From Antedon mediterranea (lineage: Eukaryota; Echinodermata; Crinoidea; Comatulida; Antedonidae): 64,000 bases of DNA. The notes under the pieces are model-generated. The model ran no database searches. It was not told where the DNA came from and worked only from the letters and a program-made list of their open reading frames with translations. Both the position numbers and the translations under genes were made by a program. Of the stretch, positions 20,107 through 62,657 are shown piece by piece. Location of the stretch: positions 31,483,795 through 31,547,794 of the forward strand of contig NC_092670.1 in the NCBI RefSeq assembly GCF_964355755.1, written 5' to 3'. Each line of letters starts with the position of its first letter. Within the stretch, counting starts at the first letter, position 1.

Positions 20107-22657
20107 TCTATATATAAATTTACGTAAGGGCAAAATTCGGTAAATCGCGCCTTACTTCTAGAATTTTCACTCGATGGTATGTAAAGTTGATTCGTACTTT
20201 CGGTACTTATTTTAACCGCCTGATGTAACCCTGTTTACTAATTAAATTGAGTTAGATAATTAGTTATTGACGATTAAAACGAATTTAGGTTCAAAGATTT
20301 GCCCCAAATAGGGGTGTTTTCCGATCGTTGTATACACTGTCTAATGGATGTCCATCTTGAAAAATACCCGCCAAAAAATGCGAGGAGGCTTCGCATTTTT
20401 CTATCTCCTCCTACGATAATTGTTTTTAATAGCTGAAAACCGGTTGAACAGCTAGAGTACACCATCATAATGTTGAAGACAGGCCGATTTTCTTTAAAAA
20501 ATACTATTTTGATAGATTTAATATACGATTATACAAATGTATTGATTTGCGATGAATGGAACATCCCAATCTCTCAGTCTGCCAGAGTTGGTTTAACACA
20601 AGTACTGTAGGTAAATTTATGAGCCCTTGGTTTAACACATACGGTAGGTAAATATATGGGCCCTTTGAGAATAAACTTGCAATACTTTGACAATACTGTA
20701 AATACCTATTAACTATTTTTCATTTGAATCGAACATTTCTTACTGTGAATGTTCGTACTGTTAGATGTAATATAAAAATATATACAAATAAACTTTATTA
20801 CTGAGACTGTGGATAGGCTCTACTGTTAGATATACAAATAAACTTTATACTGACAGTTCCTTCTCAACGTTTGTATTAATTAATAATTACCAAAAATATA
20901 AACGTCGTAGTGGTGTATCGTGACATGTACTTTAATATTTCAATCGATTATGACAGTGACAATTTTAACAAAGTATTAAATCGCAAATGTTTTAGGCCTA
21001 CTGTATTTAGAGGTATATTATTTATAGGCCTATAAAACACGAACAAAATATTTCGTTACTCAGTGGATAAAGAATATATTTAAAAATTGTTCCTCTTTGT
21101 ACCTATCCGCTTTCCCATCCCTCAACCCTAATGTTACATAGCGAGGAGGCTTCGCATTTTCCTATCTCCTCCTACGATAATTGTTTTTAATAGCTGAAAA
21201 CCGGTTGAACAGCTAGAGTACACCATCATAATGTTGAAGACAGGCCGATTTTCTTTAAAAAAATACTATTTTGATAGATTGCTAGAGTACACCATCATAA
21301 TGTTGAAGACAGGCCGATTTTCTTTAAAAAATACTATTTTGATAGATTTAATATACGATTATACAAATGTATTGATTTGCGATGAATGGAACATCCAGTA
21401 GTTTGGTTTAACACAAGTACTGTAGGTAAATTTATGAGCCCTTGGTTTAACACATACGGTAGGTAAATATATGGGCCCTTTGAGAATAAACTTGCAATAG
21501 GTTCGGAAAATGTTAAAAACCAATTTCTATTATTTGAATCGGTAAACAGTTTCCATTTATTATACATTGATAATGAAACATGAAATATTCCTATTTATGT
21601 CCCTCGAGGTTCATTACAATTTATATTTAGTAGTCCCACGGACTTCATCTTAGCCACTCCCCCGAGTGTGCTAAGGCCAAATTTATGATACCCTACTTTC
21701 TATGTAGTTACAGTTAGTTCTTGACGATAATAATAATACAACGAATTTAGGTTACACCCTTCGGCCGCGAAAACGTTTCTGTACAAATATGATACCGATT
21801 GGCTTTATTTCATTCAACAGCGACCATAATCTCGGCAATTACAGGATAGATAAACTATTTTATTATTGATGTGCTTATAAATTAAGACTCATGTAAACAG
21901 CTTGATTACATCATTTTACAGACAAACGAAACTTTTTTAAACCTACTGTTTCAATAACTGAGTATAATACTGTATACGTTTTCATAAGTAAGTGCATATA
22001 CATTTTCGTGTTTTCATTGACGAGATTGTAATAGTAACTTCAGTAACTATTACAGTACTTATTTATTATACGATACAAGACAATTGTATCTGACAGGTAC
22101 GTACATTATTCTAAAAAATAAGTCTAGATAGATCCCTTAGGCGTCATAAATCACAGGCCAACAAATCAGTACTCATGACAGAAATTCGACCCAGTTTGGT
22201 TCACACAAATGTTTACAGGAAGTTCAACACCACAACCGATGATTTGCCCTAAATATTTAGGTAGACTACAGTTTAATTTTTCACTGAATAGGAGCTTGAA
22301 TTTCCGATTTCCATTTCGCAGAATGTCTAGGTCTATTTATTTAGTTTGGTTCTTATAATATATAAATACAATCAACTTTATTACTGCGGTTCCATCACCA
22401 CCACCACGTGCTGCCGCCCAATTCCCGTACATACATTTCCATTTCTCCCTAATTTCTTTAATCCACATAAATTAATTGTCCTTTATGGAATCCAGTATTG
22501 GTTTTGTTGTCTCTATTTCTGAATACCCCAATTAGGGGGACACTTCCGTTTTTGTTTAGTGTCCCAAAAAAGTCCCCGTCCGTGGATTCTACTGTATTCG
22601 AGAACCATCTGTGAGCACCCCTAGATGGTACGCGAGCGAAGCGAGCGTGCCATCTAG
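20107..22657 (+). mobile_element. Helitron, copy 1 (non-autonomous)
   Basis: Starts with TCTATATATAAATTTACG directly after an A and ends with CTAG directly before a T, the A^T insertion rule of Helitrons. The last 37 bases (22621-22657) form a stem-loop (gatggtacgcgagc / gcgagcgtgccatc). The same termini and much of the interior occur inverted at 36054-37644. No Rep/helicase frame is present. The interior contains a duplicated block: about 20380-20690 recurs at 21140-21500, with an extra partial copy at 21280-21330. A fragment of the gtgtcccc-type inverted-repeat element is seen at about 22531-22590. Confidence 0.8.
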
Positions 22658-23095
22658 TTATATCAAATTCAGCTAAAACAAAATAATAAGACTATCATAA
22701 GTACAGTATACTGTAATTATCACTAAACTATTCAGGTACAATAACTTGCTCAATACAACAGTTGTAAGTAAACTTAATTAGGCTTATATTCTATACAAGC
22801 CTCAGTATCTCATTTAGTTAACTGGAGGGCAATCGGTAATATACCTATTGATCTTGCTGTTAAGTGCCCTCGCTATTTGGCTAAAAAACTAACAAATTAC
22901 CACCTTTCTGAACTTTAATCATAATTCCATGGATACAAGAAAAAAAAGGATAAAGAATAAAAGAAAGAAACCAAGAAAAATGGAAAAACGGGAGGGGGAT
23001 AGAGAAAGAAAAAAGTAGTGTTTGTAAAATACGCGCCCTCGTATATAAAAAAGGTACATGAAAACAAAACGGCGCCGTCTTAGGTTTCAGGAGTA
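22658..23095. other. Intergenic downstream of lectin 1
   Basis: AT-rich, with a purine-rich stretch at about 22935-23016. It probably holds the 3' end of the lectin 1 transcript; no other gene seen. Confidence 0.4.
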
Positions 23096-24597
23096 TTAAC
23101 GCACTTCCGGCATTTCACAGATATAAGATTGTGTCTCACTACAAGTTTGACCAGCCCAGAGTTTACTATACATATACATCTCACCACAACTGTTCCCTGA
23201 ATTGTTTTGTTCGTTCTCTGCAAAATCTGCAAATGAATATACAAAGCAAATCAGGTAATGTAGGCCTATTTTATATGACACTCTTATCTCCGCCATTATT
23301 ATATTCAGTCCGGTGTTCTATTGACACGTATGCTTTTAAAGCATAATTTATACCATAGCTAGACTAGATTTAAATTCGTAACTTTTACGAATTATAGATG
23401 ATCTTCTTATAGGTGATCATTTTCCCGACATTTAGGCCGCCTAAATTTTAAAATTTGGAAGTGACGAAACATGCACGTAGGCGGCACGTTAAAATACGAA
23501 CGCAAAAAGTATTACAATAGGTCCATCAGAGAATAACATACAGTATACTGTATATAGTGTAGCATAGGTGAAATTATGGGACCCATACAAAGTTGTTGGT
23601 ATGATGACGTCATCAAAATCTGATTTTATTAGGGGAAAGATGTTGTGAAAATTAAAAAACCAATGAGATTTTAAATTTTATTATATTATTTATCCAATTT
23701 TTATAAATTGTCACGATTGTTGTAATTCATTTTTTTAAACTGCAAGAACAATTTAAATAAGTAAACCTTGATTAAACCTTGATTAAAGATTGAATTTCTG
23801 CGAGATAATCGTACAGAAAGAAAGTAGAAGATAAGATGTTTGTAGCCTACAATAGGATCACCTAATTAGCAATCGGTTATTTCTTACACTTAAAAGGTGA
23901 GTATACATTATCGACCCAAACAAATGGAGTGGATGCACTTGTTTTTCTCATTCCAATCCATGCTTTCCCTGAAGTAGCAAGGTTACCGACGAAGTTATTT
24001 TCTGCATAATTATTGATCACAACAAGATCACCACGTTTATATCTTCTGCACAAAGGTCTAGCTTCATGCCAAGTAGATCGGGAGAAAAAGTAGCGATAAC
24101 ATTTAGTTCCAAACGGTCTCCAACCATGATAACACCCTAAAGTACAAACAAACAGTGTAACAGATTTTGGAAATATATTAAAAGATGATATGTATAAAAA
24201 AAATAAAAATGTTGGTAAATAATGATACTGGATAGAGAAATGATTACAACAACAAAATCATGTATGTAAACATATGATAACAAAAATACAATTTTACCAA
24301 AACTATGTATACATTATTATTAGTTCGAAAGTTATAGCCATAGTTTGTTGGACAGAATTATTGTGTCAGACGGCGCCCCGTAACAGCCGGATCAAATGGG
24401 ATGGGGCTTGGGGAAGAATACGCTCATTCCAACAAAAAGCTTCGTCAAATATTATTATTTCAAAAATTAAAGAGTGAATGATTAAGGACATTTTTAGTGT
24501 TAGTATTAGTTTAAAAAATAGTTATAATCTTACGTCCTTCAACCAGCGTTGCAGCGACTGTTAAACAGGCCAGCACCAACAAAGTAATTCGCGCCAT
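23096..24597 (-). CDS. Secreted C-type lectin 1 (divergent, three exons)
   Basis: Exons 24597-24534, 24136-23888 and 23226-23096, phases 1 and 1, total 147 residues. ATG at 24597 begins a classic signal peptide (MARITLLVLACLTVAATLVEG). The domain starts CYHGWRPFGTKCYRYF, the conserved opening of a C-type lectin domain, then TWHEARPLC, AWIGMRK, FVWVD, SCGEM, WAGQTC and a closing YICEM, followed by PEVR and stop (23096-23098). The acceptor cattttgcag at 23227 must be used: the next AG downstream would create a stop. At the Ca2+/sugar site it reads EQN instead of EPN or QPD, and the usual WND is WAG, so calcium-dependent sugar binding is doubtful. It shares its signal exon with the other lectins in the cluster, but is clearly older. 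Confidence 0.85.
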
Positions 24598-24739
24598 TCA
24601 GTATAGATGATGATTTGTTGTACAGCATCAATGAAAGAAGTGGTGACAATAAGGTGTGAAATCGTTTATGTACAAAGGAGGTTGGGCTTATTTTAGCAAA
24701 TGGGAGGAGCCTTGACACACAGCTATTTACTGTATAAAT

Positions 24740-25689
24740 ATACATATTTATCCAACTTTTTAGAAATATAATCTATACGTACGTACTACAAATGCATTGT
24801 TTGTATCCAACTATTAAAAGAAGCTCTAATGCAAAAGAAAACAAATCTGAACACTAAAATAAACTAAGTAAACTAATAATGTATAATAGGTCTATGGTTT
24901 TCATTTATCTTATCTATATTTGTTGCAACATAAAAAATCGTTTATAAAGGAAAACCGTTTTTGCACTTGATACCTGTTCTTTAGGCCTATACCTTTCGGG
25001 ATAAATTTCTTTTATTTTCTCAAAAACTAAAGTAGGCCTACACAACTTGAGCTAGAAAAGGGAAATTGATTTATTTTGAATGCATCTCTAGTTCAATTGA
25101 ACCCCACTTTGTTTAGGACTATCGTAAAGACAATGTTCTCTTTCATGGTAGGCTATGTATATAAATAGGCATAATTCCCGGTTATTTGTGCACTTTAAAC
25201 AATAAAAGGAAAAGGTCGGGTAAACCAAATTTCTAAGAAATAGTTTTTGGAATAATGTATTTCTTTGTTAACAGTGAAATCTAAACATATGTTATATATT
25301 GCAATACAGAAATCTATTGTCTTAAATGAATGGTAGGCCTAATGGTAATCCAAAAGTACAGATATGAAAATATGATTATTTTTGCCTATATTTGGTCAAA
25401 TCAATGTAAAGGTCATGTGACATTATATCATATTCAAAGATATTTTGAAAACATTGCACAACACGTGTGTAAAGTCGTATTTTGTAATACATGCAAAATG
25501 GCATATTGTAAGTCTTTAAAAAAAATTAATCTTCATCATTTTTATACTTTAACAATGGAATCCTCACCTTCTTTTTCAGTTACTCCGCCAAGGTTATTGA
25601 ATATCCTCTTGAGTGTCTTTCCAGTTTTAATATGTCGTTGCTCTATCACTTTCTGCTTGTCTTTCACCACTTTCATTTTATTTATTATA
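24740..25689. other. Intergenic, no gene seen
   Basis: Beyond the lectin 1 promoter (related block at 24640-24720: gacaataaggtgtg, aggttgggcttattttag). Three TAGGCCTA octamers at 24982, 25033 and 25334. No splice-supported frame. Confidence 0.4.
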
Positions 25690-25985
25690 CTCTAGTAGCT
25701 AGATCAACTTTCGTATGCACTTTGAGGTCCAGAGAATTTGATTTCAGAAATTTTTTAGCGTAGTTAAACAATCATTTTTGGCTTGGTTACACATTTTGAA
25801 AATGTGGTGAAAGGTTATAAGACCAAATATCAATAGGTCCTTAAATCTCGACAACCAATGTTCACAAATTGATCAGAAGGCATACTTATGTTCAGTCTAA
25901 TGGGAAATTTTAGTCAAAAATGACGGAAATGCAATTTCTGACTCACAACCCATGACATATCTCCGTAATAGACACTTGAATATAC
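25690..25985 (-). repeat. Dispersed repeat, inverted copy of 38160-38480
   Basis: Words such as ctagatcaactttcgtatgc, tcatttttggcttggttac and cacattttgaaaatgtggt are the reverse complement of sequence at 38340-38480. The two copies flank the older part of the lectin cluster in opposite orientation. Confidence 0.7.
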
Positions 25986-26194
25986 ATTTTGTTATTTGAA
26001 AACTTTCAAGAATTATCCCAAAATTCAAACTTAGATTTCAAGAAGTCGATCTCAAATCTCACGTGTCCAGCTACAAACCTCTTCTGATCCTCGTGAATTT
26101 CAAAGGCAAAATCGTTCAAGATCAAAGTCTTGCTATTGATGGAAATGTTATCAGCTTTATTGTTATTTTTAAAGTTCATCTTTTTTGTCTATCG

Positions 26195-26695
26195 TGTCGT
26201 TTTTTGTAACAACTGTCGTTTTTTGTATACATGTCGTTTTTTGTATACCTGTCGTATTTTGTAACACCTGTCGTATTGTGCATGCACCTGTCGTATTTCG
26301 TAACACTTGTCGTATTGTGTAACACTTGTCGTATTTTGTAACACTTGTCGTATTTTGTAACACTTGTCGTATTCTGTAACACTTGTCATATTTTGAAACA
26401 CTTGTCGTATTTTGAAACACTTGTCGTATTTGTTAACACTTGTCGTATTTTGTAACACCTGTCGTATTTTGTAACACCTGTCGTATTTTTGAACACCTGT
26501 CGTCGTATTTTTGAACACTTGTCGTATTTTGTAACACTTGTCGTATTTTGTAACACCTGTCGTATTTTGTAACACCTGTCGTATTTTGTAACACTTGTTG
26601 TATTTTTTAACACATGTCGTCGTATTTTGTAACAGCTGTCGTATTTTGTAACACCTATCGTATTTTGGAACACCTGTCGTATTTTGGAACATTTT
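26195..26695 (+). repeat. 19-bp minisatellite, array A1
   Basis: About 26 copies of a 19-bp unit (gtcgtattttgtaacacct/t). It sits inside a block of about 1 kb (26030-27035) that recurs five more times in the window, each time on the 3' side of a lectin gene. A pyrimidine-rich stretch follows (26690-26800). Minus-strand open frames here are only an effect of the repeat (3 x 19 = 57). Confidence 0.9.
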
Positions 26696-27076
26696 TTTGT
26701 TCTGTTAACTTTCTGTCTTTCTTTCTGTATTTTTCTGTTTTTCATTTTTCTCTGTTTCCTTTTTTTTCTTTGTTTTTTTTTTTTTCAATTTTTTACTCAT
26801 TAATTTATTTACGGTTTAATTCATTTATTTTAAGGAAGAATATATTATCAATAATGTTTCAGTATCTACAATACCTACACACTAAAATAAACACACAACT
26901 TTATTGCTATTTAAATAACGTGTATTTTATTTGGAAATAGTATTAAAACAAAAAAATATCCAAAACAATGATTGTTTCAAAAAATATTTGTTTGATTAAT
27001 CATAACATCTTTATACTCTTGTATTACTTCGTGTTCAAGGTCAAACTGGGCGACGCCATTTCACAGGAGCATGGAA

Positions 27077-27250
27077 GTCAATTACTCTACCCCCCTAGAG
27101 TATTAGCAGATCCCCTCTATGATTTTGACTTTCTAATTTGATGCGGGCGCCCTACTCCTCAGTCAATTACTCTATCCCCCCCTAGAGTATTAGCAGATCC
27201 CCTCTATGATTTTGACTTTCTAATTTGATGCGGGCGCCCTACTCCATGGC
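27077..27250 (+). repeat. 86-bp tandem duplication
   Basis: gtcaattactctaccccc to gcgggcgccctactcc occurs twice in a row (27077 and 27163). The corresponding sites in the later units (40108 and 49668) have only one copy. Near 27482 and 27535 a second short duplication (cctaag caaaatccccactatcccc) occurs. Confidence 0.85.
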
Positions 27251-27779
27251 TCACAATGGCGCTCTATTCTATCCCACAATGCCTTTCGAAATTGTTACGT
27301 GCTTCGGACGAACAGGAGATTCTTGTGTTATAAGTTCTTTGATGTAGTTTAAAACATTCCCAGTTTCGGTAATGGTGATAGGCCTACATCCCCACCCCAA
27401 AATCCCAGCTGTTTCCCAGTTATAATAAAATACTGTAACATTCTCCATCCACAATTCTGGTCAATTTGATAGCCTACTATTCCTAGTCTAAGCAAAATCC
27501 CCACTATCCCCTAAACCCAACACACTACTCCTAGCCTAAGCAAAATCCCCACTATCCCCCTGAACAATAGGCGTTTTTTTCTTGGAGGCATGGTGATGTA
27601 GTTGAACACAATAACAGTAAAGAACGTGTATATGTTTACACAGTAATGGATGTCTGTAATGAGACAATCCAAGAGACCGATACATAGCTGGATATGGGTA
27701 AAGTACTTTGATAAATGTGTAAATGAATAGGTGTCATATTGGTTAATGAATAAAATATGTATATCTATATCTATAATTA

Positions 27780-28251
27780 TTTCCCCAAACGCTTTGCTGA
27801 GGATAATTCAAATACTGTAAAACTTTTGTAGTATAATTTTACAATTCGATAGCCTACAATCCCGAGCCCTAGAAAAAATGACATCACAAACCACCACACC
27901 CGCCCCCCTCCCACAAAAACCCCAGGAGTCGGGGGAATTTTTAAAATGTAGTTTAAAACCTTCCGGGTACAATTGCCATCATTTTGATACCCCATATGTA
28001 TGGTTACGTGCACAAACAGAAATATGTATAACGAACAAACATCGAAAGTGGGGGTTTTGACCACATTTTGGTCCCTAACTTGGATCCTAGGTGGCAGATG
28101 ATGTTGAAATATAGCTTAGAACATTGCCGGTACAATTGCGGTCATTTTGATACCCCATATGTAAGATTACGTGCAGTAACAAAAATTTGTATAACGAACA
28201 AACAAACACACAGACAGACAGACGTACAAACTCTCTCACTTATAATATAGA
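27780..28251 (-). mobile_element. Helitron-like insertion in lectin pseudogene (5' end defined)
   Basis: Read on the minus strand it begins TCTATATTATAAGTGAGAG directly after an A at 28252, in the middle of a lectin exon. That is a Helitron-type 5' end and differs from the 20107 family. Inside, two related blocks of about 80 bases (28116-28205 and 27960-28041) share caattg, cattttgataccccatatg and gtataacgaac. The 3' terminus was not found; the lower boundary is a guess. The whole piece is missing from the later 9.56-kb units. Confidence 0.6.
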
Positions 28252-28953
28252 TGACAACAAGATCTGCGTTGAGAGTGCCTTGCAATTAGATTGAGCTTGC
28301 TCCCAAGTCAATGATTTGGCAAAGTATTTATAACACTTTGAACCATATTGACGCCAACCATAACCGCAACCTAAAATACACATTATAAAAGTGAGCATTT
28401 ATTCATTAATCTACAATGTTTAGGTGAATACATAGGCAGATTCACCTAATATTGAGCCATTGAACAGCTGAGCTCAACCACTCTGACAATTCTAGATTTC
28501 ATACTAATTGTTAAATGCCATGTAATGATGGTACATTTGTTTTGTTAATTTCATTCATTCGAAAGAAAAATGCCTTTGGATTCTTTTGTGTTTTTATTTT
28601 GATTTTTATCCTTTTTTATCATCATTTATGTTTAATATCGATGATGACTTTTTTCCAGCTGTCCTTACTGAAGATGTTAGTAATAGCGCAAGATGGTTTA
28701 CTCAACTAACGTTTTATAGGCCTATGTTTTTAAATGGTTTTTTGATAGACCCATGAACTATAGATACAGTAGTAGGCCTACTTACAAAAACGAAGAAATA
28801 GAAACGTAACGGTACAATAACAAGGTAAAGATTAAGTACAACCCAGATTCAAATACATGTCTACAATAATATTAAAAACTTACTACCTCCTCCTTCAACC
28901 AGAGTTGCACCGAACGTTAGGCAGGCCAGCACCAAAAAAATGAATCGCGCCAT
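28252..28953 (-). pseudogene. Lectin pseudogene 3A (signal exon plus broken exon 2)
   Basis: Exon 1 (28953-28887) encodes a signal peptide MARFIFLVLACLTFGATLVE and ends in phase 1 at GTAGTA. Exon 2 starts at 28370 after ttttag and reads CGYGWRQYGSKCYKYFAK, then TWEQAQSNCKAL. There it shifts frame (the intact genes read ALNSDLVVINN) and is cut at 28252 by the Helitron end. No exon 3 is found below. Nine codons of signal exon match the intact gene 2A exactly, so it arose by local duplication and then decayed. Confidence 0.85.
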
Positions 28954-29016
28954 TTTGTAGATATGATATTGTAATTCTGCAGCAAGGAAGAAGTGTTGAC
29001 AATAAGGCGTGTATTC

Positions 29017-29025
29017 GCTTATATA
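29017..29025 (-). promoter_or_regulatory. TATA box of lectin pseudogene 3A
   Basis: TATATAAGC on the minus strand, 64-72 bases upstream of the ATG, inside a block conserved before every duplicated lectin (about 28954-29210). Confidence 0.6.
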
Positions 29026-29595
29026 GACCTAAGTACAAAGAAGGTTGGGCCTATTTTACCCAATGAATAATTGATTCATACATAGCTAAAACAACTTGTA
29101 ATACAAGAACCAACAGGGAAAAAGCACGTGTCAACACCTTTTTTAAAAAGGGAAAGACAGCGGAAAAGAGATATTGAGGCACTCCCTCAGTTGGGTAGGT
29201 CTACGGTAAAGACAATTCACCGTGTATTGCTATTATTCTACATCCTATTAGTATTAACCATTTTAATTTCCTTTTATTAATATGTAGTTGAAATTTGATT
29301 TTGAAATGAATGAGGTAATAAAAAAAGAGAAAGAAAATTTACTGAGCACAAATTAGACCAATTAAAAATATTGTTTGGTAAAAATAAAATATTGTTTGGT
29401 AAAACTTTCAAGAATTATCCCGAAATTCAAACTTAGATTTCAAGAAGTCGATCTCAAATCTCACGTGTCCAGCTACAAACCTCTTCTGATCTTCGTGAAT
29501 TTCAAAGGCAAAATCGTTCAAGATCAAAGTCTTGCTATTGATGGAAAAGTTATCAGCTTTATTGTTATTTTTAAAGTTCATCTTTTTTGTCTATC

Positions 29596-30028
29596 GTGTC
29601 GTATTGTGCAACACCTGTCGTATTTCGTAACACTTGCCGTATTTTGTAACACTTGTCGTATTTTGTAACACCTGTCGTATTTTGTAACACCTGTCGTATG
29701 TTGTAACACCTGTCGTATTGTGTAACACCTGTCGTATTTTGTAACACCTGTCGTATTGTGTAACACCTGTCGTATTTTGTAACACCTATCGTATTTCGTA
29801 ACACCTATCGTATTTTGTAACACCTGTCGTATTTTGTAACACTTGTCGTATTTTGTAACACCTTTCGTATTTTGTATACCTGTCGTATTTCGTAACACCT
29901 GTCGTATTTCGTAACACATATCGTATTTCATAACACCTGTCCTATTTTGTAACACTTGTCGTATTTTGGAACACTTGTCGTATTTTGGAACACATGTCGT
30001 ATTTTGAAACACCTTTCGTATTTTGCCT
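29596..30028 (+). repeat. 19-bp minisatellite, array A2
   Basis: About 23 copies of the same 19-bp unit as A1, with the same flanks (29395-30450). It lies 3' of lectin 2A and is followed by a pyrimidine-rich stretch to about 30215. Confidence 0.9.
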
Positions 30029-30486
30029 ATTGCCTTTTTTCTTTTGTTTTTCTCCTTGTCTCTCTGATTTTATCTGTCTTTCTTTCATTATGTTTTCTGT
30101 CTTTTCTCGTTCTGTATTTTTTGGGTTTGTTTCCTTTCTGTCTGCTTTTTCTTTTTTTTCTTTCTTTCTTTTTCTGTTTTTCATTTTTTCTGTTTTCTAT
30201 TTTTTTGCTCATTATTTTATTTACGGTTTAATTCATTTATTTTAAGGAAGAATATATTATCAATAGTGTTTCAATCTCTACAATACCTACACACTAAAAT
30301 AAACACAAAACTTTATTGCTATCCAATTAACGTGTATTTTATTTGGAAATAGTATTAAAACAAAAAAATATCCAAAAACAATGATTTTTTCAACAAATAT
30401 TGGTTTGATTAATCATAACATCATTATACTCTTGTATTACTTCGTGTTCCTTCTTGTCACCAGTAAAAGAGCAATTACGGGTACGA

Positions 30487-32351
30487 CTCTGAAAATTAAA
30501 ATACAAACGAATAAACTATAAGCTTCCGTACATGAATCTTGAGACCGAATTTAACCGAATTGACGATTTTAAGATGAGTTTTGTCGTATGATTTATGTTG
30601 CTGTTTCCAACAAGCCTACACGTGTGTAACATTTCCAGTTCGTTGGTTGATTGTGTATCACGTGATGAAGTACACTATTATATTCTCCTCATTGTAATTC
30701 ATAAACTTTCGTTATTTGCATAACTGCATAATTGCATACAATTAAATCGATAACATAATAGGGAAGTAACAATATAACCTAAACGCGTGACAACCTGATT
30801 AGAATAGACGTTCGTAATTAGAAAACTTTTTAGAGAAAAACATATTTTTTTAGATTTCATAACGGAACGAAAATAACCGAATTGAAAGAAACTTTTGAAC
30901 AAATTGAAGAAATGAAAAGGTAGGAAACGAGTGATGGGATATTGTTCTATTTTTTAAAACTCTGTAAACTAAACTGATACAGTACTTACAATTTTGCCTT
31001 TTTTCACAGACATGACATAATCTTGTACTACATTCCCGATCAGTCCAGCATGAGCTGGATTTCAACATTTCAACACAATTTTGGTTACCACCATAATTGT
31101 TTGGTTGACCACTTTGAAAATCTAAAAATAAATTTATAATCTATATAAATAATAATAATTGGACCGTATTCGTTAGTGTACATTGAAGAGTATACAAAGT
31201 ATTAGCAATATGCAGGAAACGATTCCGGTATGAATATCGGTTAATTGATTGACTGATGTCTGAAATATTTGAGACGGCGCAATCAAATGAAATAGGAACA
31301 CTACAATATAATTATGGGAGATAATTTTATGAAAATCGTACCATCGTCTTCGTCTTAGACACCTCACAAAATTACCCACCACAGCCAGGGTAATGTTGCT
31401 CTGCCCTCTCACTGCATAATGACACAGTAAATTACATTATAAACTCATTTTATAGCATAGCTTCCATCACTTTTTTAAAAATAATTCAGTCAATGTACCA
31501 AATCACAAATTATATTTGTGTAATACAATCACAAAATAAGGAAATAGTACTTACACTCGTATGATGAACATGAATTAGGAACTCCGACCCAACTAAAATA
31601 ACTGTCTTTACTTAATTTTTTCATTCCAATCCACGCACTTTTTGCAACAATAAGTTTACGAACGAAACTGTTTTCTTGTTTATTATTGATGACAACAAGA
31701 TCTGAGTTGAGTGCATTGCAATGAGATTGAGCTTGTTCCCAAGTCAAAGATTTGGCAAAGTATTTATAACACTTTGAACCATATTGATGCCAACCATAAC
31801 CGCAACCTAAAATACAAACAATATAGAATTGAGCATTTATTCATTAATCTACAGTAGTTAGATGAATACATAGGCAGATTCACCCAATCCACTTCAGTTT
31901 GACAAACATAACTGTATGCCTATATTTTTACAAATATTGAGCCATTGAACAGCTTTAACCACACTGACAATTCATTTTCATACTAATTGTTAAAGTGCCA
32001 TGCGAAGATGGTACATTTGTTAATTTCATCCATTCGAAAGAAAAATGCTTTTTGATTCTTTCGTGTTTTTATTTTGATATAGTTTAATATGGATGATGAC
32101 TTTTTTGCCAGCTGTCCTTACTGGAGATGTTTAATAGTAATACCGCAACATGGTTCACTTAACTAACGTTTTATAGGCCTATGTTTTTAAATGGATACTC
32201 CTGTGGAATATAAAGGTAGCGGTACAATAACAACTTAAACAACACAGATTTAAATACATGTCTACAATAATATTAAAAATTGACTACCTCCTTCAACCAG
32301 AGTTGCACCGAACGTTAGGCAGGCCAACACCAACAAAATGAATCGTGCCAT
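30487..32351 (-). CDS. Secreted C-type lectin 2A
   Basis: Exons 32351-32288, 31806-31555, 31121-30990, then an acceptor at 30489. Splice phases are all 1. The stop appears to be split: exon 3 ends with T, exon 4 starts AG, giving TAG (30488-30487). Product 149 residues: signal peptide MARFILLVLACLTFGATLVEG, domain start CGYGWHQYGSKCYKYF, TWEQAQSHC, AWIGMKK, SWVG, the sugar-site motif GQPNNYGG, NCVEM, CWTDREC and LCHVCEK. QPN with a cis-proline and a WTD in place of WND keep most of the Ca2+/sugar-binding features of mannose/galactose-type domains; six Cys of the long-form fold are present. Upstream is a TATA box at 32415-32423. Probably an extracellular carbohydrate-binding protein. Confidence 0.85.
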
Positions 32352-32414
32352 GTTGTAGATATGATATTGTAATTCAGCAGCAAGGAAGAAGTGTTGACAA
32401 TAAGGCGTGTATTC

Positions 32415-32423
32415 GTTTATATA
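32415..32423 (-). promoter_or_regulatory. TATA box of lectin 2A
   Basis: TATATAAAC on the minus strand, 64-72 bases before the ATG. Conserved surroundings extend to about 32620 (gacagcggaaaagagatatt, gaggcactccctcagttgg). Confidence 0.65.
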
Positions 32424-33486
32424 GACCTAAGTACAAAGAAGGTTGGGCCTATTTTACCCAATGAATACTTGATTCATATATTCGTAGATGATAGTAGCTA
32501 GTTACTGAAAGAACCATAAAGGAAAAACAGCATGTGTCAACATTTTTTTTGAAAGGGAAAGACAGCGGAAAAGAGATATTGAGGCACTCCCTCAGTTGGG
32601 TAGATCTACGGTAAAGGCAATTCATCGTGTATGATTATAAAAACAATTATACATATTCAGGGTAATTGGGTAAAACGTAAAATGGAGTAAAATGTGTCTT
32701 CGCAGTGAAATTTAAACATACAGTATGTTATGAATTGCATTAAACAAGGTTGGACGGGGAGGCAAGCCATTAGCAATATAATAATGGTGAGGTAAATCTA
32801 ATATTCAAAGGATAATGTTGCGTTGGTATTAGACAGATGCACATTGGCTAGGTTGGCAATAATAAAAGACGAAGTGAAATATATAGTTAAGGAGAAAAAT
32901 TATGCAACAGATTTGCACGATTTTGTGTATTTTTAGGCCTAAATAGGCTTATGAAACGGCTTCTGCTGCCATTTTTATTAATGTATGTTTTTCAATACAA
33001 ATTAAAAACGATTAAAATACCATCTTTTAAACAAATTTTAATTGGAAAAAATACATAAAACAGTAAAGAAGGAACATGCACGGAAAATATAAACAAACAT
33101 TGTTTAATATAGTATAATATAAACAATGATGATAACTTATAATAATATTAATCTTATTTCTGTAGATAATCCACAAGTATGATTGCATCATAAAAAAGAG
33201 AGGTATACGCCAAACGAGGAGGAAATGTTCGAACTACCAATTTCGCTGGAGAAAACTCATCGAAAAGTTGATTTCCATTAGTTACTTTTTTGGCGGGAAT
33301 CGAACAATAAAAAAACTTTACACTACCCTTTTGTTTTTGTTAACAGTGAATAGTTGTGGTTTTTCGAACATGTGATTGCCATGCCAATCAAAAAGGAGCG
33401 ATACTTTATTTCCTCAATTATTGTAACACTAAAGGTGGGCCTACGTAATAGAAAGAGGGTTCGGCAAATGAATATGCAAAACCAAA

Positions 33487-34312
33487 CGTGTATACCCTAA
33501 ATACCCTACTGTACACGAACATAAACCAAGTGTGTATACCCTAAATATCCTACTGTGTATACCCTAAATATCCTACTGTGTATACCCTAAATATCCTACT
33601 GTGTATACCCTAAATATCCTACTGTGTATACCCTAAATATCCTACTGTGTATACCCTAAATATCCTACTGTGTATACCCTAAATATCCTACTGTGTATAC
33701 CCTAAATATCCTACTGTGTATACCCTAAATATCCTACTGTGTATACCCTAAATATCCTACTGTGTATACCCTAAATACCCTACTGTGTATACCCTAAATA
33801 TCCTACTGTGTATACCCTAAATATCCTACTGTGTATACCCTAAATATCCTGCTGTGTATACCCTAATATCCTACTGTGTATACCCTAAATACCCTACTGT
33901 GTATACCCTAAATATCCTACTGTGTATACCCTAAATATCCTACTGTGTATACCCTAAATATCCTGCTGTGTATACCCTAATATCCTACTGTGTATACCCT
34001 AAATATCCTACTGTGTAGGCCTATACCCTAAATACCCTACTGTGTATACCCTAAATATCCTACTGTACACGAACATAAACCAAGTGTGTATACCCTAAAT
34101 ATCCTACTGTGTATACCCTAAATATCCTACTGTGTATACCTTAAATACCCTACTGTGTATACCCTAAATATCCTACGTGTATACCCTAAATATCCTACTG
34201 TGTATACCCTAAATATCCTACTGTGTATACCCTAAATATCCTACTGTGTATACCCTAAATATCCTACTGTGTATACCCTAAATACCCTACTGTGTATACC
34301 CTAAATATCCTA
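33487..34312 (+). repeat. 23-bp minisatellite, array A
   Basis: About 35 copies of a 23-bp unit (tgtgtataccctaaatatcc plus tac). Breaks by cacgaacataaaccaag occur at the start and at 34066. One unit carries TAGGCCTA in place of TA (34016-34023). Confidence 0.9.
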
Positions 34313-34883
34313 TGCCATTTCTGAACTTAAATTTGGTATCAAATTGTTGGAAATATAGATATTTAAATTCATTCTAATAGAAAATTTGGTTAAAAGATGA
34401 CCAGAAATACTATTAATTACTACTGTAATGTTATTGTTTCAAACAAATAACATATCTCTACACAACTTATCCTTGGACAGTAATGTAATGTTAATGTTAT
34501 AACTTATGCTTTAAATTGTTTCATTATACGATTTAAAACAAATCCTTTACTGTTTGTAATTGTATTTTTGCTTATAATAATGCTAGAAAGTATTTTTGAC
34601 CCCCGAGGATGATCAAACATTTTGATAGAAACGTCGAGCCCAACAGAATTCTTTTCAGAATGCTAAAGTAACTTACCGAATTCATCCTAATAAACGCCCC
34701 GGGAATTTATTGTTCAGAAGGGTTTTTTCGTTTTTTATTGGCATAATATGGTATGTATAATCAAATAAATACTACCTACAGCAGAAAAAAAAAATACAGC
34801 ACAATTATTATCAAAAAGTGATACAAAAATACTTGGTAAATTGTAGATTATGGTAGTCATTGAAATGTGTTGTGATACAATTA

Positions 34884-35003
34884 TTAGTCGCGTGCAACGC
34901 AACTCTACAGCTCACTATGTCGGTCGGTTGGTCGGTAAACACTAACTAAAATTTGAGCACGCGACTGCAGCCATGTATATGGCCTTGTTGTGTATATGCA
35001 TGT
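34884..35003 (+). mobile_element. Short GTCGCGTG element, copy 1
   Basis: From ttagtcgcgtgcaacgc through ctcactatgtcggtcggttg to gcacgcgactgcagcc and atggccttgttg. It has both ends of the long element at 13994-17760 but almost no interior. Confidence 0.65.
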
Positions 35004-35646
35004 GGCGGGGCGTTTAAATCGAAGGGAGGGGTGAGCGTTTATTTAAAATGTTTCTGTCTTTTAGAATAAAAGTGACACTGTCACAGGTTCCATTTATCGA
35101 ATCCTCTCCAGGTTCCAGTATAATAAAACAATGACACATCATTATCCTGAGACACTATATGAGACACGATTACACAATTTGTCATCTGTTTGTTTGTAAC
35201 TACAATTTGTCAACAATCAACACTGTCTTTTGCATATATGCCAATACATAGTTTCAATATGTCCAGCTTTCCTGAAAACACCCTTGTGTACTGTAGTGTG
35301 TTGTAGTATGATTTTATAATGATTTTAAAATACACTTCTGATGCTTTTATTGTCAATGCATTTAGTACTTAAAAAATAAAAAAAAACCTAAGTTTCTAGT
35401 GGTATTGATAATAAATCTCCAGAAATATTGTTTTATTATGTACACTGGGAACAGACGTGTATAAATTATGTATAATTTGTCGGTGACATTCAAAAATATT
35501 ATACAACAGTGTTATATACAGAATGATGACAATGAATTGGTCTAATATAGTTGTCTCCGATACCTTTTCAATATCATGATTGTAGTTGCACCCGGATGAG
35601 GAGGTTTAATCCAGTTATTCTTATTACAATATTAATTGTCTTGTAC

Positions 35647-35760
35647 TTTTAGTCGTGTCGCGACTCTACAGCTCAATATGTCGGTCGGTTGGTCGGTCGG
35701 TAAACACTCACTTGAGCACGCGACTGCAGCCATCTATATGGCCTTGTTTTATATCTAGGA
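35647..35760 (+). mobile_element. Short GTCGCGTG element, copy 2
   Basis: ttttagtcgtgtcgcgactc ... gcacgcgactgcagccatc ... tatggccttg; same structure and direction as 34884-35003. The region between the two copies (35004-35646) has no gene. Confidence 0.65.
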
Positions 35761-36053
35761 CGGTGTATTTATTTGATATACCTATATTTTTACCATATTA
35801 CACCAAAAACAAACAAAAACGCCTCCACCGAATAAACATCCCTCCCCCTAAACACCCCTCTGAACAATAAATGTCCGGGGCGTTTATTAGGATAAATACG
35901 GTAAGTTACTTCTAGCATTCTGAAAAGAACTGTTGAGTTCGACGTTTCTATCAATGCTTGATCGTCCTCGGGAGGGGTCAACAATATTTTCTAGCATTAT
36001 TATAAGCAAAAGTACAATTACAAACAGTAAAGGATTTGTTGTAATTCCTATAA

Positions 36054-37644
36054 CTAGATGGCACGCTCGCTTCGCTCGCGTACCATCTAGGTCGTGCCCA
36101 CAGATGGTTCTCGAATACACAGTATTTCCAGCGAGAAAAAAAATGGAGATTTCAAATGTACGTACCGCAGGACTATAATACATTGTCGTTTACAGAAACG
36201 AATAAATATACACAATGATTTATGTAGTCAACCAAAATTAGCACCCTGGGAATTACTTCCGAGAGAGAAACAAAATGAGTCAAATTTTTTTATTTGGACT
36301 CATTTAAACAAACCCAATTTGTGTTTTGTATGTAACATTAAGGGTTGAGGGATGGGGGAAGAAGATAGGTACAAAGAGGAAACATTTTAAAATATATTCT
36401 TATCCACTCAGTAACGAAATATTGTTTTTAATGTTTTATAGGCCTATAAATAATATACCACTAAATACAGTAAAACATTTACGATTTAATACGGTACTTT
36501 GTTAAAACTCTCACTGTCATAGTCGATTGAAATAGTAAAGTACATGTAACGATACACCACTACGACGTTTATATATTTTTAAATTATTAATTAATACAAA
36601 CGTTGAGAAGCAACTGTCAGTAATAACGTTTATTTATTTGTATATTATATGTTTATAATCTAACAGTAGGGCCTACCCACACTCACAGTAATAAAGTTTA
36701 TTTGTATATATTTTTATATTACATCTAACAGTACCAACACTCACAGTAAGAAATTTGCGATTCAAATTGCGATCAAAAGTGGTTAATACCTTAACAGTAT
36801 TGTACAGCATTGCAATACTATTTATGTTTATTCTCCAAGGGGGCCCATAAATCTAAATCTATACCTCTATGGTTAAACCAAATAATTTGGAATGTTTATT
36901 TGTATATTATATGTTTATAATCTAACAGTAGGGCCTACCCACACTCACAGTAATAAAGTTTATTTGTATATATTTTTATATTACATCTAACAGTACCAAC
37001 ACTCACAGTAAGAAATTTGCGATTCAAATTGCGATCAAAAGTGGTTTTAACCATTAAAATACCTTAACAGTATTGTACAGCCAGGGAACTCCCTGGTACA
37101 GCATTGCAATACTATTTATGTTTATTCTCCAAGGGGGCCCATAAATCTAAATCTATACCTGTATGGTTAAACCAAATAATTTGAAATGTTCCATTCATCA
37201 CAAATCAATACATTTGTAAAAACGTATATTAAATGTATCAAAATAGTATTTTTTAAAGAAAATCGGCCTGTCTTCAACATTATGATGCTGTACTCGAACT
37301 GTTCAACCGGTTTTCAGCTATTAAAAACAATTATCGTAGGAGGAGATAGGAAAATGCGAAGCCTCCTCGCATTTTTGTGGCGGGTATTTTTCAAGATGGA
37401 CATCCATTAGACAGTGTATACCACGATCGGAAAACACCCCTATTTGGGGCAAATCGTTGAACCTAAATTCGTTTTAATCGTCAATAACTAATTATCTAAC
37501 TTAATTTAATTAGTAAACAGGGTTACATCAGGTGTTTAAAATCAGTACCGAAAGTACGAACCAACTTTACATACCATCGAGTAAAAATTCTAAAAGTAAG
37601 GCGCGATTTACCGAATTTTGCCCTTACGTAAATTTATATATAGA
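36054..37644 (-). mobile_element. Helitron, copy 2 (inverted relative to copy 1)
   Basis: On the minus strand it begins TCTATATATAAATTTACG at 37644 (preceded by A) and ends CTAG at 36054 (followed by T), with the same terminal stem-loop (36054-36090). It has its own internal tandem duplication: 36632-36790 recurs at 36896-37046. 1,591 bases against 2,551 in copy 1. Target site is confirmed by the empty site in the opposite arm at 34523/34524. Confidence 0.85.
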
Positions 37645-38480: not shown

Positions 38481-39184
38481 ATATAAATAATAGCATTTTC
38501 TTCTTTAATTTTTGTTTTAAACAATCAATACTAATGGTATATGTTGGTAGTAACAGAGAATCAGATGATTTCAACAAGCACCCGACCTAAACTTAGGCCT
38601 GATTGGATCTAAGTGCAGGGCGAAAGATCACTGTTCCTCCATCCTACAGATTAGGTTAAACATGCTAGCTCTCCCTTAATTAAGGCTCTAAACTTTATCT
38701 TCTGTTCCTGTAAGAATATAATTTTATATAAAATATGAATTGATAATTTGAATAGTTTTGTTAAAATTCTCCAGAAGACGATCAATGGAGCAATAATTCA
38801 ATCAAATGATAAGATTTATTTCTTTCTATTAAATCAATTCAATCTTTTTTTTTGACATAAAACAAACTGCTAGTCTTGTTATATTCAATATGGCGGAAGA
38901 CTCAACATTTAAACAATGGTATAATGTGTGTAATATTAAAAGCAGGAAAAAGCCTACATATCTAGTTTAGGTCAGGGCCTAGACACGATTAGCAATGCTA
39001 TTATATTACATCCTATTATTAGATTTCAAGAAGTCGATCTCAAATCTCACGTGTCCAGCTACAAACCTCTTCTGATCCTCGTGAATTTCAAAGGCAAAAT
39101 CGTTAAAGATCAAAGTCTTGCTATTGATGGAAATGTTATCAGCTGCTTTATTGTTATTTTTAAAGTTCATCTTTTTTGTCTATC

Positions 39185-39698
39185 GTGTCGTATTTTGTAA
39201 CAACTGTCGTTTTTTGTATACATGTCGTTTTTTGTATACCTGTCATGTTTTGTAACACCTGTCGTATTGTGCATGCACCTGTCGTATTTCGTAACACTTG
39301 TCGTATTTTGTAACACTTGTCGTATTTTGTAACACCTGTCGTATTTTGTAACACCTGTCGTATATTGTAACACCTGTCGCATTTTGTAACACTTGTCGTA
39401 TTCTGTAACACTTGTCATATTTTGAAACACTTGTCGTATTTTGAAACACTTGTCGTATTTTTGAACACTTGTCGTATTTTGTAACACCTGTCGTATTTTG
39501 TAACACCTGTCGTATGTTTGAACACCTGTCGTCGTATTTTGTAACAATTGTCGTATTTTGTAACACCTGTCGTATTTTGTAACACCTGTAGTATTTTGTA
39601 ACGCTTGTCGTATTTTTTAACACATGTCGTCGTATTTTGTAACAGCTGTCGTATTTTGTAACACCTATCGTATTTTGGAACACCTGTCGTATTTTGGA
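39185..39698 (+). repeat. 19-bp minisatellite, array B1
   Basis: Same unit as A1 and A2; identical to C1 (48745-49258). Confidence 0.9.
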
Positions 39699-40640
39699 AC
39701 ATTTTTTTGTTCTGTTTACTTTCTGTCTTTCTTTCTGTATTTTTCTGTTTTTTCATTTTTCTCTGTTTTCTTTTTTTTTCTTTGTTTTTCTTTTCAATTT
39801 TTTACTCAATAATTTATTTACGGTTTAATTCATTTATTTTAAGGAAGAATATATTATCAATAATGTGTCAGTATCTACAATACCTACACACTAAAATAAA
39901 CACACAACTTTATTGCTATCCAATTGACGTGTATTTTATTTGGAAATAGTATTAAAACAAAAAAATATCCAAAACAATGATTGTTTCAAAAAATATTTGT
40001 TTGATTAATCATAACATCTTTATACTCTTGTATTACTTCGTGTTCAAGGTCAAACTGGGCGACGCCATTTCACAGCATGGAGCAGCGCCCCCTCCAAACT
40101 AGGAAGTCAATTACTCTATCCCCCTAGAGTATTAGCAGATCCCCTCTATGATTTTGACTTTCTAATTTGATGCGGACGCCCTACTCCATGGCTCACAATG
40201 GCGCCACCCATTAGCTCTATTCTATCCCACAATGCCTTTCGAAATTGTTACGTGCTTCTGACGAACAGGAGATTCTTGTGTTATAAGTTCTTGGATGTAG
40301 TTTAAAATATGCTTTTGGATTCTTTCGTGTTTTTATTTTGATTTTTATCCTTTTTTATCATCATTTATGTTTAATATCGATGATGAATTTTTTCCAGCTG
40401 TCCTTACTGAAGATGTTAGTAATAGCGCAAGATGGTTTACTCAACTAACGTTTTATAGGCCTATGTTTTTAAATGGATACACCTGTGACGGTTTTTTGAT
40501 AGACCCATGAACTATAGATACAGTAGTAGGCCTACTTACAAAAACGAAGAAATAGAAACGTAACGGTACAATAACAAGGTAAAGATTAAGTACAACCCAG
40601 ATTCAAATACATGTCTACAATATTATTAAAAACTTACTAC

Positions 40641-40707
40641 CTCCTCCTTCAACCAGAGTTGCACCGAACGTTAGGCAGGCCAGCACCAAAAAAATGAATC
40701 GCGCCAT
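40641..40707 (-). pseudogene. Orphan lectin first exon 3B
   Basis: ATG at 40707 opens a 22-codon signal-peptide exon identical to that of pseudogene 3A, with an intact GTAGTA donor in phase 1. Its exon 2 is gone: at about 40310 the sequence jumps from gttcttggatgtagtttaaa to atgcttttggattctttcg, which lie 1.2 kb apart in the older unit. The TATA box and promoter block are intact, so the exon may still be transcribed. Confidence 0.75.
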
Positions 40708-40770
40708 TTTGTAGATATGATATTGTAATTCTGCAGCAAGGAAGAAGTGTTGACAATAAGGCGTGTATTC

Positions 40771-40779
40771 GCTTATATA
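40771..40779 (-). promoter_or_regulatory. TATA box of orphan exon 3B
   Basis: TATATAAGC on the minus strand, 64-72 bases before the ATG, in an otherwise intact copy of the lectin promoter block. Confidence 0.55.
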
Positions 40780-41350
40780 GACCTAAGTACAAAGAAGGTT
40801 GGGCCTATTTTACCCAATGAATAATTGATTCATACATAGCTAAAACAACTTGTAATACAAGAACCAACAGGGAAAAAGCACGTGTCAACACCTTTTTTAA
40901 AAAGGGAAAGACAGCGGAAAAGAGATATTGAGGCACTCCCTCAGTTGGGTAGGTCTACGGTAAAGACAATTCACCGTGTATTGCTATTATTCTACATCCT
41001 ATTAGTATTAACCATTTTAATTTCCTTTTATTAATATGTAGTTGAAATTTGATTTTGAAATGAATGAGGTAATAAAAAAAGAGAAAGAAAATTTACTGAG
41101 CACAAATTAGACCAATTAAAAATATTGTTTGGTAAAAATAAAATATTGTTTGGTAAAACTTTCAAGAATTATCCCGAAATTCAAACTTAGATTTCAAGAA
41201 GTCGATCTCAAATCTCACGTGTCCAGCTACAAACCTCTTCTGATCCTCGTGAATTTCAAAGGCAAAATCGTTCAAGATCAAAGTCTTGCTATTGATGGAA
41301 ATGTTATCAGCTTTATTGTTATTTTTAAAGTTCATCTTTTTTGTCTATCG

Positions 41351-41758
41351 TGTCGTATTTTGTAACAACTGTCGTTTTTTGTATACATGTCGTTTTTTGT
41401 ATACCTGTCATATTTTTTAACACTTGTCGTATTGTGCATGCACCTGTCGTATTTTGTAACACTTGTCGTATTTCGTAACACTTGTCGTATTTTGTAACAC
41501 TTGTCGTATTTTGTAACACCTGTCGTATGTTGTAACACCTTTCGTATTTTGTAACACCTGTCGTATTTTGTAACACTTGTCGTATTTTGTAACACCTTTC
41601 GTATTTTGTATACCTGTCGTATTTCGTAACACCTGTCGTATTTCGTAACACATATCGTATTTCATAACACCTGTCCTATTTTGTAACACTTGTCGTATTT
41701 TGGAACACATGTCGTATTTTGGAACACATGTCGTATTTTGAAACACCTTTCGTATTTT
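41351..41758 (+). repeat. 19-bp minisatellite, array B2
   Basis: Same unit; 3' of lectin 2B; identical to C2 (50911-51318). Confidence 0.9.
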
Positions 41759-42216
41759 GCCTATTGCCTTTTTTCTTTTTTTTTTCTCCTTGTCTCTCTG
41801 ATTTTATCTGTCTTTCTTTCATTATGTTTTCTGTCTTTTCTCGTTCTGTATTTTTTTGGTTTGTTTCCTTTCTGTCTGCTTTTTCTTTTTTTTCTTTCTT
41901 TCTTTTTCTGTTTTTCATTTTTTCTGTTTTCTATTTTTTTGCTCATTATTTTATTTACGGTTTAATTCATTTATTTTAAGGAAGAATATATTATCAATAG
42001 TGTTTCAATCTCTACAATACCTACACACTAAAATAAACACAAAACTTTATTGATATCCAATTAACGTGTATTTTATTTGGAAATAGTATTAAAAAAATAT
42101 CCAAAAACAATGATTTTTTTCAACAAATATTTGTTTGATTAATCATAACATCTTTATACTCTTGTATTACTTCGTGTTCCTTCTTGTCACCAGTAAAAGA
42201 GCAATTACGGGTACGA

Positions 42217-44064: not shown

Positions 44065-44127
44065 GTTGTAGATATGATATTGTAATTCAGCAGCAAGGAA
44101 GAAGTGTTGACAATAAGGCGTGTATTC

Positions 44128-44136
44128 GTTTATATA
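44128..44136 (-). promoter_or_regulatory. TATA box of lectin 2B
   Basis: TATATAAAC on the minus strand. Further upstream (44231-44270) a patch matches the 3-type promoter rather than the 2-type one. Confidence 0.65.
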
Positions 44137-47774: not shown

Positions 47775-48744
47775 CAAAAACATTGTAACAAATTGGTGGC
47801 AAGAAATAAGAACAATATCTTGTCAACCAGTTTTTAACAATTATATACATTTTTTTTAAAGAATTATATAATTATTAAAGGAATTATAGAATTAAAACAA
47901 AAATTTTTAATCAGTATAATAATCAAGCACATCTACACATGATTCATATCCTTTTTTTCTTACATATAAAAAGTTCTTTAAAATAATTAAATCTTTTATA
48001 AACTAGAACTTAAAAATCTTTTATATAAATAATAGCATTTTCTTCTTTAATTTTTGTTTTAAACAATCAATACTAATGGTATATGTTGGTAGTAACAGAG
48101 AATCAGATGATTTCAACAAGCACCCGACCTAAACTTAGGCCTACAGTAATTGTAGGCCTATATTGGATCAAAGCACAGGGCGAAAGATCATTGTTCCTCC
48201 ATCCAACAGATTAGGTTAAACATGCTAGCTCTCCCTTAATTAAGGCTCTCAACTTTATCTTCTGTTCCTGTAAGAATATAATTTTATATGAAATATGAAT
48301 TGATAATTTGAATAGTTTTGTTAAAATTCTCCAGAAGACGATCAATGGAGCAATAATTCAATCAAATGATAAGATTTATTTCTTTCTATTAAATCAATTC
48401 AATCTTTTTTTTTGACATAAAACAAACTGCTAGTCTTGTTATATTCAATATGGCGGAAGACTCAACATTTAAACAATGGTATAATGTGTGTAATATTAAA
48501 AGCAGGAAAAAGCCTACATATCTAGTTTAGGTCAGGGCCTAGACACGATTAGCAATGCTATTATATTACATCCTATTATTAGATTTCAAGAAGTCGATCT
48601 CAAATCTCACGTGTCCAGCTACAAACCTCTTCTGATCCTCGTGAATTTCAAAGGCAAAATCGTTAAAGATCAAAGTCTTGCTATTGATGGAAATGTTATC
48701 AGCTGCTTTATTGTTATTTTTAAAGTTCATCTTTTTTGTCTATC

Positions 48745-50267: not shown

Positions 50268-50330
50268 TTTGTAGATATGATATTGTAATTCTGCAGCAAG
50301 GAAGAAGTGTTGACAATAAGGCGTGTATTC

Positions 50331-53624: not shown

Positions 53625-53687
53625 GTTGTAGATATGATATTGTAATTCAGCAGCAAGGAAGAAGTGTTGACAATAAGGCGTGTATTC

Positions 53688-60736: not shown

Positions 60737-62657
60737 TATCCGCACTTGGCGGATAACTCCTTGTGATTGTATGGGATCATCATTTTTTTTTTTTTTTTCT
60801 GTATTATTAGTTATCCGCTTAGTAGCGGATAACTTCTTGTAATCGTCCTGTTACTTTTTTTTTTTTTTTTTTTTCTTATTTCTTTCTCCTCCATTTTTGT
60901 GCCTCACGTATCTCAAAAACTTGTAAACATAACATTTCATAACTTTGTCAACATATGGGCATTTACGTGAAGTTGTGCACCTCCTATTTTTGAATGACGT
61001 CAGAGTTGCGCAACGTGACTTACGTGCGATTTTATGATTTTTTATGATTGATCATAGACTAAAAACCAAGCATAAATTTGTTTTGACACTTTGTGAAAAT
61101 TTAAGTCATATCAAGGGCAAACTTTTTGTGGATTAAAAATGCCATGTTTTACAAGACGTTACGCGCGCACGCGCATTTCTCCTCTATTTTTGTATCTCGC
61201 GTATCTCAAAAACGTGTAAACATAACATTTCATAACTTTGTCAACATATGGGCATTCACGTGAAGTTGTGCACCTCCTATTGTGAATGACGTCAGAAATG
61301 CGCAACGTGACTTACGCACGATTTTATGAATTTCGCGTATTTAACATAGATTTTAAACCATATAACAATTTAAATTGAAACTTAGCAAAAGTTTAATTTA
61401 TTTCATGCGCTAACTTTCTGTGGAAAAAAAATTGCGTGTTTTACACAAAGTTACGCGCGCACGCGCATTTAAAATTCAAAATGCGCAAAATTAATTTTTA
61501 ATCAACTTTCTACGCTGATCATGACATTTTGACCATGTCAAAATTTCCCACGCGCGCAAACAATTTTATGCGCGTGGTGCGCACGTAGCGCTAAAAGATT
61601 TTTTTTTTATTGAATTATGTTTTTCCAGCCTTTTATAGTAATTTTACCAATTCTAAAACAATTTCACCTTACAATTACGTCATACGGGCACGTTGAATTG
61701 GATACTTTACGTGCGTTTTTGATGAAAAAGTTCAAAAATTTGTCAAAATTATGCCTTTTTTTAAACAGTCATAGATTCTAAACAACGAGGTGAACTTTTT
61801 TTTAATTACATATTCTGGAAGTTGATGAGTTGTAGAAATCGGATCATGAATCAATATGGCTAACCGGACATTGTGACGTCATGGTATGGCCACACGAATG
61901 TAAAATATAGGATTTTTGTCTCTTTCATTATTGCTCATCATATTCAATGGAGCGCATCACGCCTATCTGTATTCCTTTTTCTCTGAGATTTTAATATTGT
62001 CTAGGTCAATCAACTATCTTACGCATGAGTTAAAAATATTTTAATTTTTATGATGTCACCATGCCTAAAAATTTTAATTAACAGCGTCATTAATTTCATC
62101 TTTACAGTAAATTTTAATCTGTTATAGCTCGTAAGAATAAAATGTGATAATCACGATTAAAACGTTTTCAGGAAGCTATGGGATTGTAGATACGAAATCA
62201 TGTGAACTTTTCACCAATCAGATGTTGTGACGTCATCATATGGCCAGTTAAATAAACAAAGTCATGTTTTCATCTTTTGCGTCATAGTTCATTACATTTA
62301 AAAAAGCGCGCATTAATATTTCACGTATTCAAATTTCTTCTAAACGTTAATATGTTGTTGCTGAGATAATTTCCTTCCGAAATTACTACAGTACCTTCGC
62401 GTTTCCTTTTGAAAATTAAAATAAAATACGGGTCCCGTAATTTCACCTATTTTACACTGTTTGTGACATGTATACAGATTATACTGTGTATACTATATGA
62501 CAGAAAATATACAGCATTCAGTACTAACAACACATCATATTCTTCAGTTCAGGTCATAATGACATAATCTTTTTCGGTGTGCAATATTCCAACGTATGAC
62601 GTGCACGTGGCGTTTGTCGTGCGGATAACTAACTCGTCAAAGTGACGAGTTTCATGT
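60737..62657 (+). mobile_element. Long dispersed repeat with Helitron-like 3' end, copy 1
   Basis: Two small palindromes open it (agttatccgc..gcggataact at 60738 and 60812), each followed by T runs. It ends with gcggataactaactcg, then the stem-loop ctcgtcaaagtgacgag, seven bases and CTAG before T (62654-62657 approximately). The interior is rich in gcgcgcacgcgc. A block of about 300 bases is repeated inside (60880-61180 and 61180-61480: cataacatttcataactttg, catatgggcatt). No protein frame. Confidence 0.55.

Follow-up and report, generated by a model that had tools for sequence, protein, structure and literature searches.

The octamer TAGGCCTA is scattered through the genome of Antedon mediterranea far beyond what base composition predicts, and it is probably a fixed footprint, left when a cut-and-paste transposon that targets TA was excised and its ends kept GGCC (or GG and CC) in place. 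The argument from scar to transposon runs by analogy with two further TA scars of this genome, TACAGTA and TACCGTA, because the source element was missing from the roughly 262 kb searched and the transposases found were not linked to GGCC ends.

The window, that is, the whole 64-kb stretch of DNA analysed here (33% GC), contains 28 copies of TAGGCCTA, where dinucleotide shuffles average 0.5 and never exceed 2 and a second-order Markov model expects 0.9; no palindromic octamer is commoner in it. The sequence-only reading that called the octamer frequent was exact at every coordinate that it listed (Table 1), and the genome-wide count that it proposed returned a large excess: 128,871 copies in the whole assembly (354,431,138 bases, 18 contigs), or one per 2.75 kb, set beside 1,589 for the reversed word, a CpG-containing string that serves as a rough control only. 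TA occupies 9.8% of positions, so the octamer is carried by about 0.37% of all TA, or 1 TA in roughly 270. Nine random 10-kb loci held 21 copies versus 0.75 after shuffling; together with the assembly count, this makes the excess a genome-wide feature rather than one local to the window. In 161 kb of array-poor sequence there were 66 copies against 4.2 expected from a third-order Markov model. The strongest control is the flank test in the same 161 kb, where GGCC was found 66 times between TA and TA and 0–2 times for any of the 11 alternative palindromic dinucleotide flanks, showing that GGCC needs TA on either side. At the start of contig C1 (about 5–9 kb), a long inverted repeat (L005/L012), full of CTAGGCCTAG and related tandem words, is far denser in TAGGCCTA than the nine random loci.

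Table 1. Octamers and related TA insertions in the window.
Feature	Position	Strand	Remark
TA -> TACTGTA, +5	20602..20608 (approximate to 1-2 bases)	.	repeat copy; Sleeping Beauty-type footprint word
TAGGCCTA	20993..21000	.	at TA of interspersed repeat; related copies read TTTTACTG, so +6
TAGGCCTA	21025..21032	.	same repeat as 20993; old: in most copies, missing from L041 subfamily
TAGGCCTA	23261..23268	.	single copy in sample
TAGGCCTA	24982..24989	.	single copy in sample
TAGGCCTA	25033..25040	.	single copy in sample
TAGGCCTA	25334..25341	.	single copy in sample
TAGGCCTA	27379..27386	.	single copy in sample
TAGGCCTA	28717..28724	.	common to six paralogous copies adjoining C-type lectin genes
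other five paralogous copies of the 28717 octamer	32174, 40456, 43887, 50016, 53447		
TAGGCCTA	28773..28780	.	also at 40527 and 50087
TAGGCCTA	32934..32941	.	single copy in sample
TAGGCCTA	34016..34023	.	one unit of 23-bp tandem array; other units read CTACTGTGTATACCC; exact +6 at TA
TAGGCCTA	36439..36446	.	21025 site, inverted copy
two octamers 17 bp apart, TAGGCCTACAGTAATTGTAGGCCTA	48136..48160	.	
TA -> TACAGTA, +5	62387..62393	.	repeat; other copies read TACTGTA or plain TA

The origin of the octamer was inferred by comparing octamer-bearing with plain-TA copies of the same repeat. In the 23-bp array at 33488–34312, the unit at 34016 reads CTACTGTG-TAGGCC-TATACCC and its partner units CTACTGTGTATACCC; at window position 20993 the repeat reads TTTTAGGCCTACTG, and L038, L035, L041 and window position 36577 have TTTTACTG there or a sequence close to it. 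At both sites the comparison of repeat copies bears out the earlier claim that the octamer replaces a plain TA in paralogues. At L064:950, a locus picked without regard to the octamer, TA has become TAGGCCTA, a gain of six bases. A genome search anchored in the interspersed repeat and seeking the octamer retrieved a single-copy +6 in AAATATATTC (L067), a second at the TA of CTTTATCC (L068) and three GGCCTA units, an 18-bp run, at one TA in TTTAGGCCTAGGCCTAGGCCTAG, where related copies read TTTAG (L069). The insertion is exact at TA and duplicates it, as in Tc1/mariner footprints, and it adds six bases or a multiple of six, with the exception of array unit L017:1501, which carries two extra bases. 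Its polarity is that of an insertion in the array, and likewise wherever a lone copy carries it and many others have plain TA. A common-repeat stretch with seven TA, searched in an unstated number of copies, contained no insertion.

These events weigh on two rival readings. An exact palindrome so far above composition could be a selected protein-binding or structural motif accumulated by mutation, but where the ancestral state is visible the octamer appears in a single +6 step at TA, and it does so in repeats and satellite units that give no sign of function; we regard such selection as extremely unlikely. Spread of the octamer as a short tandem repeat, with hitch-hiking in repeat families after few original insertions, would fit the relative surplus of triples and quadruples over doubles among the matches listed and the young repeat subfamilies that carry the octamer at high identity, such as the one with the 20993 site, of which many 571-bp copies are 99–100% identical. 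Yet about 97% of copies are non-tandem, most sites in the window have unrelated flanks and no repeat partner in the sample, and independent +6 events are seen, so that this process amplifies the octamer while leaving its origin unexplained, and as a full account it is quite improbable.

The octamer has company. In an indel scan of repeats, three loci show a change from TA to TACAGTA/TACTGTA and one a change from TA to TACCGTA, each of them +5; the rest of the TA-x-TA indels were AT-rich or isolated odd cases, few in number. Once AT-rich cases are set aside, TACAGTA, TACCGTA and TAGGCCTA are the only TA-x-TA insertions of the sampled repeats that either recur or correspond to an enriched word, and the ranking of TA-NNN-TA words is led by TACAGTA (116 versus 42) and TACCGTA (39 versus 15). 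The published footprint of Sleeping Beauty and Frog Prince, C(A/T)GTA, is identical to TACAGTA/TACTGTA (PMC3878927). TA-bounded inverted-repeat elements beginning with CCG lie at L037:4053-4733, whose ends match over 25 bp, L031:1983-2921 and L042:4457-4701; they are candidate sources of the enriched TACCGTA/TACGGTA and begin as TACCGTA predicts, so that matching element ends exist for one scar of this genome at least. CAG, CCG and GGCC, the inserts of the three scars, are self-complementary or close to it, a property expected if the identical overhangs of inverted ends anneal.

Target context points the same way for two of these scars. Outside tandem runs, 30 of 60 TAGGCCTA sites lie in an R-TA-Y context, compared with 26.5% of all TA (p ~9e-5), and the opposite context is avoided; this 50% share amounts to the bias around TA looked for in a Tc1/mariner footprint. 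TACAGTA/TACTGTA leans in the same direction (44 of 115). Octamers at both neighbouring TA of a TATA number 139, near the 98 that independent hits predict, which favours the footprint reading. Tandem TAGGCCTAGGCCTA occurs 3,605 times against 960 predicted, a 3.8-fold excess to which slippage, preferred re-use of a site or multi-unit addition must contribute.

A further possibility is a TA-directed process of insertion or break repair, unconnected with transposon excision, that appends GGCCTA as a fixed unit, at times more than once, for example by templated or telomerase-like addition to the ends of breaks in TA. The tandem excess, the repeat copy with three units at one TA and the enrichment of the 9-bp words TAGGGCCTA/TAGGCCCTA all favour it, as does the failure to find a source element with matching ends in about 262 kb. 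Against it stand the two other fixed TA scars, one a published footprint and one with matching elements, and the R-TA-Y preference shared with TACAGTA; moreover, addition of telomere type predicts a GGG/CCC form, and TAGGGCCCTA was counted 0 times in the 161 kb of array-poor sequence. On balance we consider this mechanism unlikely. More broadly, and tentatively, some TA-specific process acting across the whole lineage may have marked about 1 in 270 TA with the same 6 bp, be it a transposon family not yet recognised, whose GGCC ends are 4 nt long and self-complementary, or a way of inserting DNA that involves no transposon; the scar would thereby have become the genome's most over-represented octamer.

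The excision reading, which we prefer, would work as follows. A Tc1/mariner-like element would insert at TA and duplicate it; on excision, a few bases of its end would stay on each flank, and end joining would close the gap to give TA-GGCC-TA, a net gain of 6 bp. As first proposed, GG from one side may have been joined to CC from the other. A single self-complementary overhang fits better, since the usual Tc1/mariner outcome keeps one 2–3-nt overhang: 4-nt 3′ overhangs GGCC from both inverted ends would anneal perfectly, GGCC being self-complementary, and so yield a uniform scar, or a 3-nt GGC overhang could anneal through GC and be filled in to the same product. The transposase that we infer as the maker, the overhang and the element's ends all belong to this model.

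Experimental work has made the footprints of Tc1/mariner elements well known. That of Minos, a Tc1-like element of Drosophila hydei, is 6 bp long, TA plus four end bases, and in this resembles TAGGCCTA, although the Minos end sequence differs from GGCC and no Minos-like element was found here. In Tc1/mariner transposition the cut in the second strand falls a few bases within the element, and the 3′ overhangs so formed are converted by end joining to a footprint that lies between two TA (PMC8151067, PMC3878927). With the footprints of Sleeping Beauty and Frog Prince (TA-C(A/T)G-TA), TAGGCCTA shares the TA target, the duplicated TA and a few fixed, partly self-complementary bases between the two TA, and it lies in a genome in which the canonical words TACAGTA/TACTGTA are enriched. 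It differs in keeping four bases, fully self-complementary, in its roughly 129,000 copies and in a source element not found in ~262 kb. Because four bases exceed the described footprint length of 2–3 nt (PMC3878927), we class TAGGCCTA as working like a Tc1/mariner footprint and not as a proven member. The 4-nt self-complementary overhangs of piggyBac, which anneal directly, are like the proposed GGCC overhang, but piggyBac targets TTAA and leaves no footprint (PMC3878927), whereas here the target is TA and the scar +6. Full-text literature searches of partial coverage returned no description of TAGGCCTA as a footprint or an over-represented word.

The variant forms fared unevenly. TAGGCTA/TAGCCTA do occur in the window, but their excess is weaker than had been claimed (10 copies versus 5 in shuffles, shuffle maximum 12), and the GGC/GCC core is as frequent between AT and AT as between TA and TA. 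These words are thus not TA-specific, which leaves the idea of a base lost during repair unsupported; the same flank control led us to abandon them as a possible +5 scar left by a GGC element. The longer 9-bp form TAGGGCCTA/TAGGCCCTA is enriched though rare (2 versus 0.3 in the window, 6 versus 0.2 in random loci). The original footprint proposal is thus supported in part, by the exact 6-bp insertion at TA in independent repeat copies, by the genome-wide excess and by the scars of a known type in the same genome; the 3-base forms lend it no support.

Nor did the search that it called for, for TA-flanked elements with GG...CC termini, find any in ~262 kb (0.07% of the genome). The scans for inverted repeats, which required TA at the boundaries, covered GG, GGC and other starts. 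GGCC inverted-repeat candidates in L005, L024 and L035 were rejected, since each belonged to a larger hairpin or to a tandem array; the one at L024:1501-1679 is a segment of a longer foldback whose complementarity runs on outside the TA. Genome profile searches returned no match to the mariner transposase (PF01359), on which the control genomes were silent too, only 8 matches to DDE_3, 47 to DDE_1 and about 150 to DDE_Tnp_4 (PIF/Harbinger type), none of them linked to GGCC ends. Three DDE_3 copies (L044-L046) had no convincing GG ends, and one DDE_1 copy (L074) showed nothing clear at its ends.

Several of the DDE_Tnp_4 copies are nearly identical, a sequence pattern that suggests recent PIF/Harbinger activity and raises the question of whether the scars stem from PIF/Harbinger-type (PHIS) excision. 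Such excision is mostly precise, which counts against that origin, and five PIF/Harbinger copies (L062-L066) had no TA-GG ends, although both ends were not reached. PHIS elements abound in this genome and frequently have GG at their start, as the ends of ISL2EU and Nuwa do; their published target duplications, however, are TWA, AT, ANT, CWG or TNA (PMC4482050), and the scar duplicates TA, matching none of the AT, TWA, CWG or TNA duplications by which the group is recognized. We therefore think a PHIS origin very unlikely.

If the octamers are footprints, their word counts would form a fossil record of DNA-transposon departures that outlasts the elements, and +6 or +5 changes at TA would be a major, predictable source of small insertions. 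A uniform palindromic scar predicts the cut geometry of an element not named here, and the footprint idea is directly testable in resequenced individuals or sister species.

The window has further repeat structure. A tandem duplication of about 9.56 kb (38481-48578 / 48023-58146, 99.6% identity), with pieces of C-type lectin genes in its unit, is related to an older 4.2-kb copy at 28566-32787 (97%). C-type lectin exons (Pfam Lectin_C) on the minus strand at 23899-24160, 28230-28380 and 31600-31800 belong to a local cluster and encode short, secreted lectins with the signal peptide MAR(I/F)...LVLACLT. The 19-bp tandem repeat TGTCGTATTTTGTAACACC forms six separate arrays (26195-26691, 29597-30025, 39186-39701, 41351-41759, 48746-49261 and 50911-51319), and 1243-4110 is a clean satellite in which a 75-bp unit is repeated 38 times, the units being 97% alike. 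Outside the window, the tandem array at L040:1-1664 resembles, as judged by eye, 5S ribosomal RNA genes.
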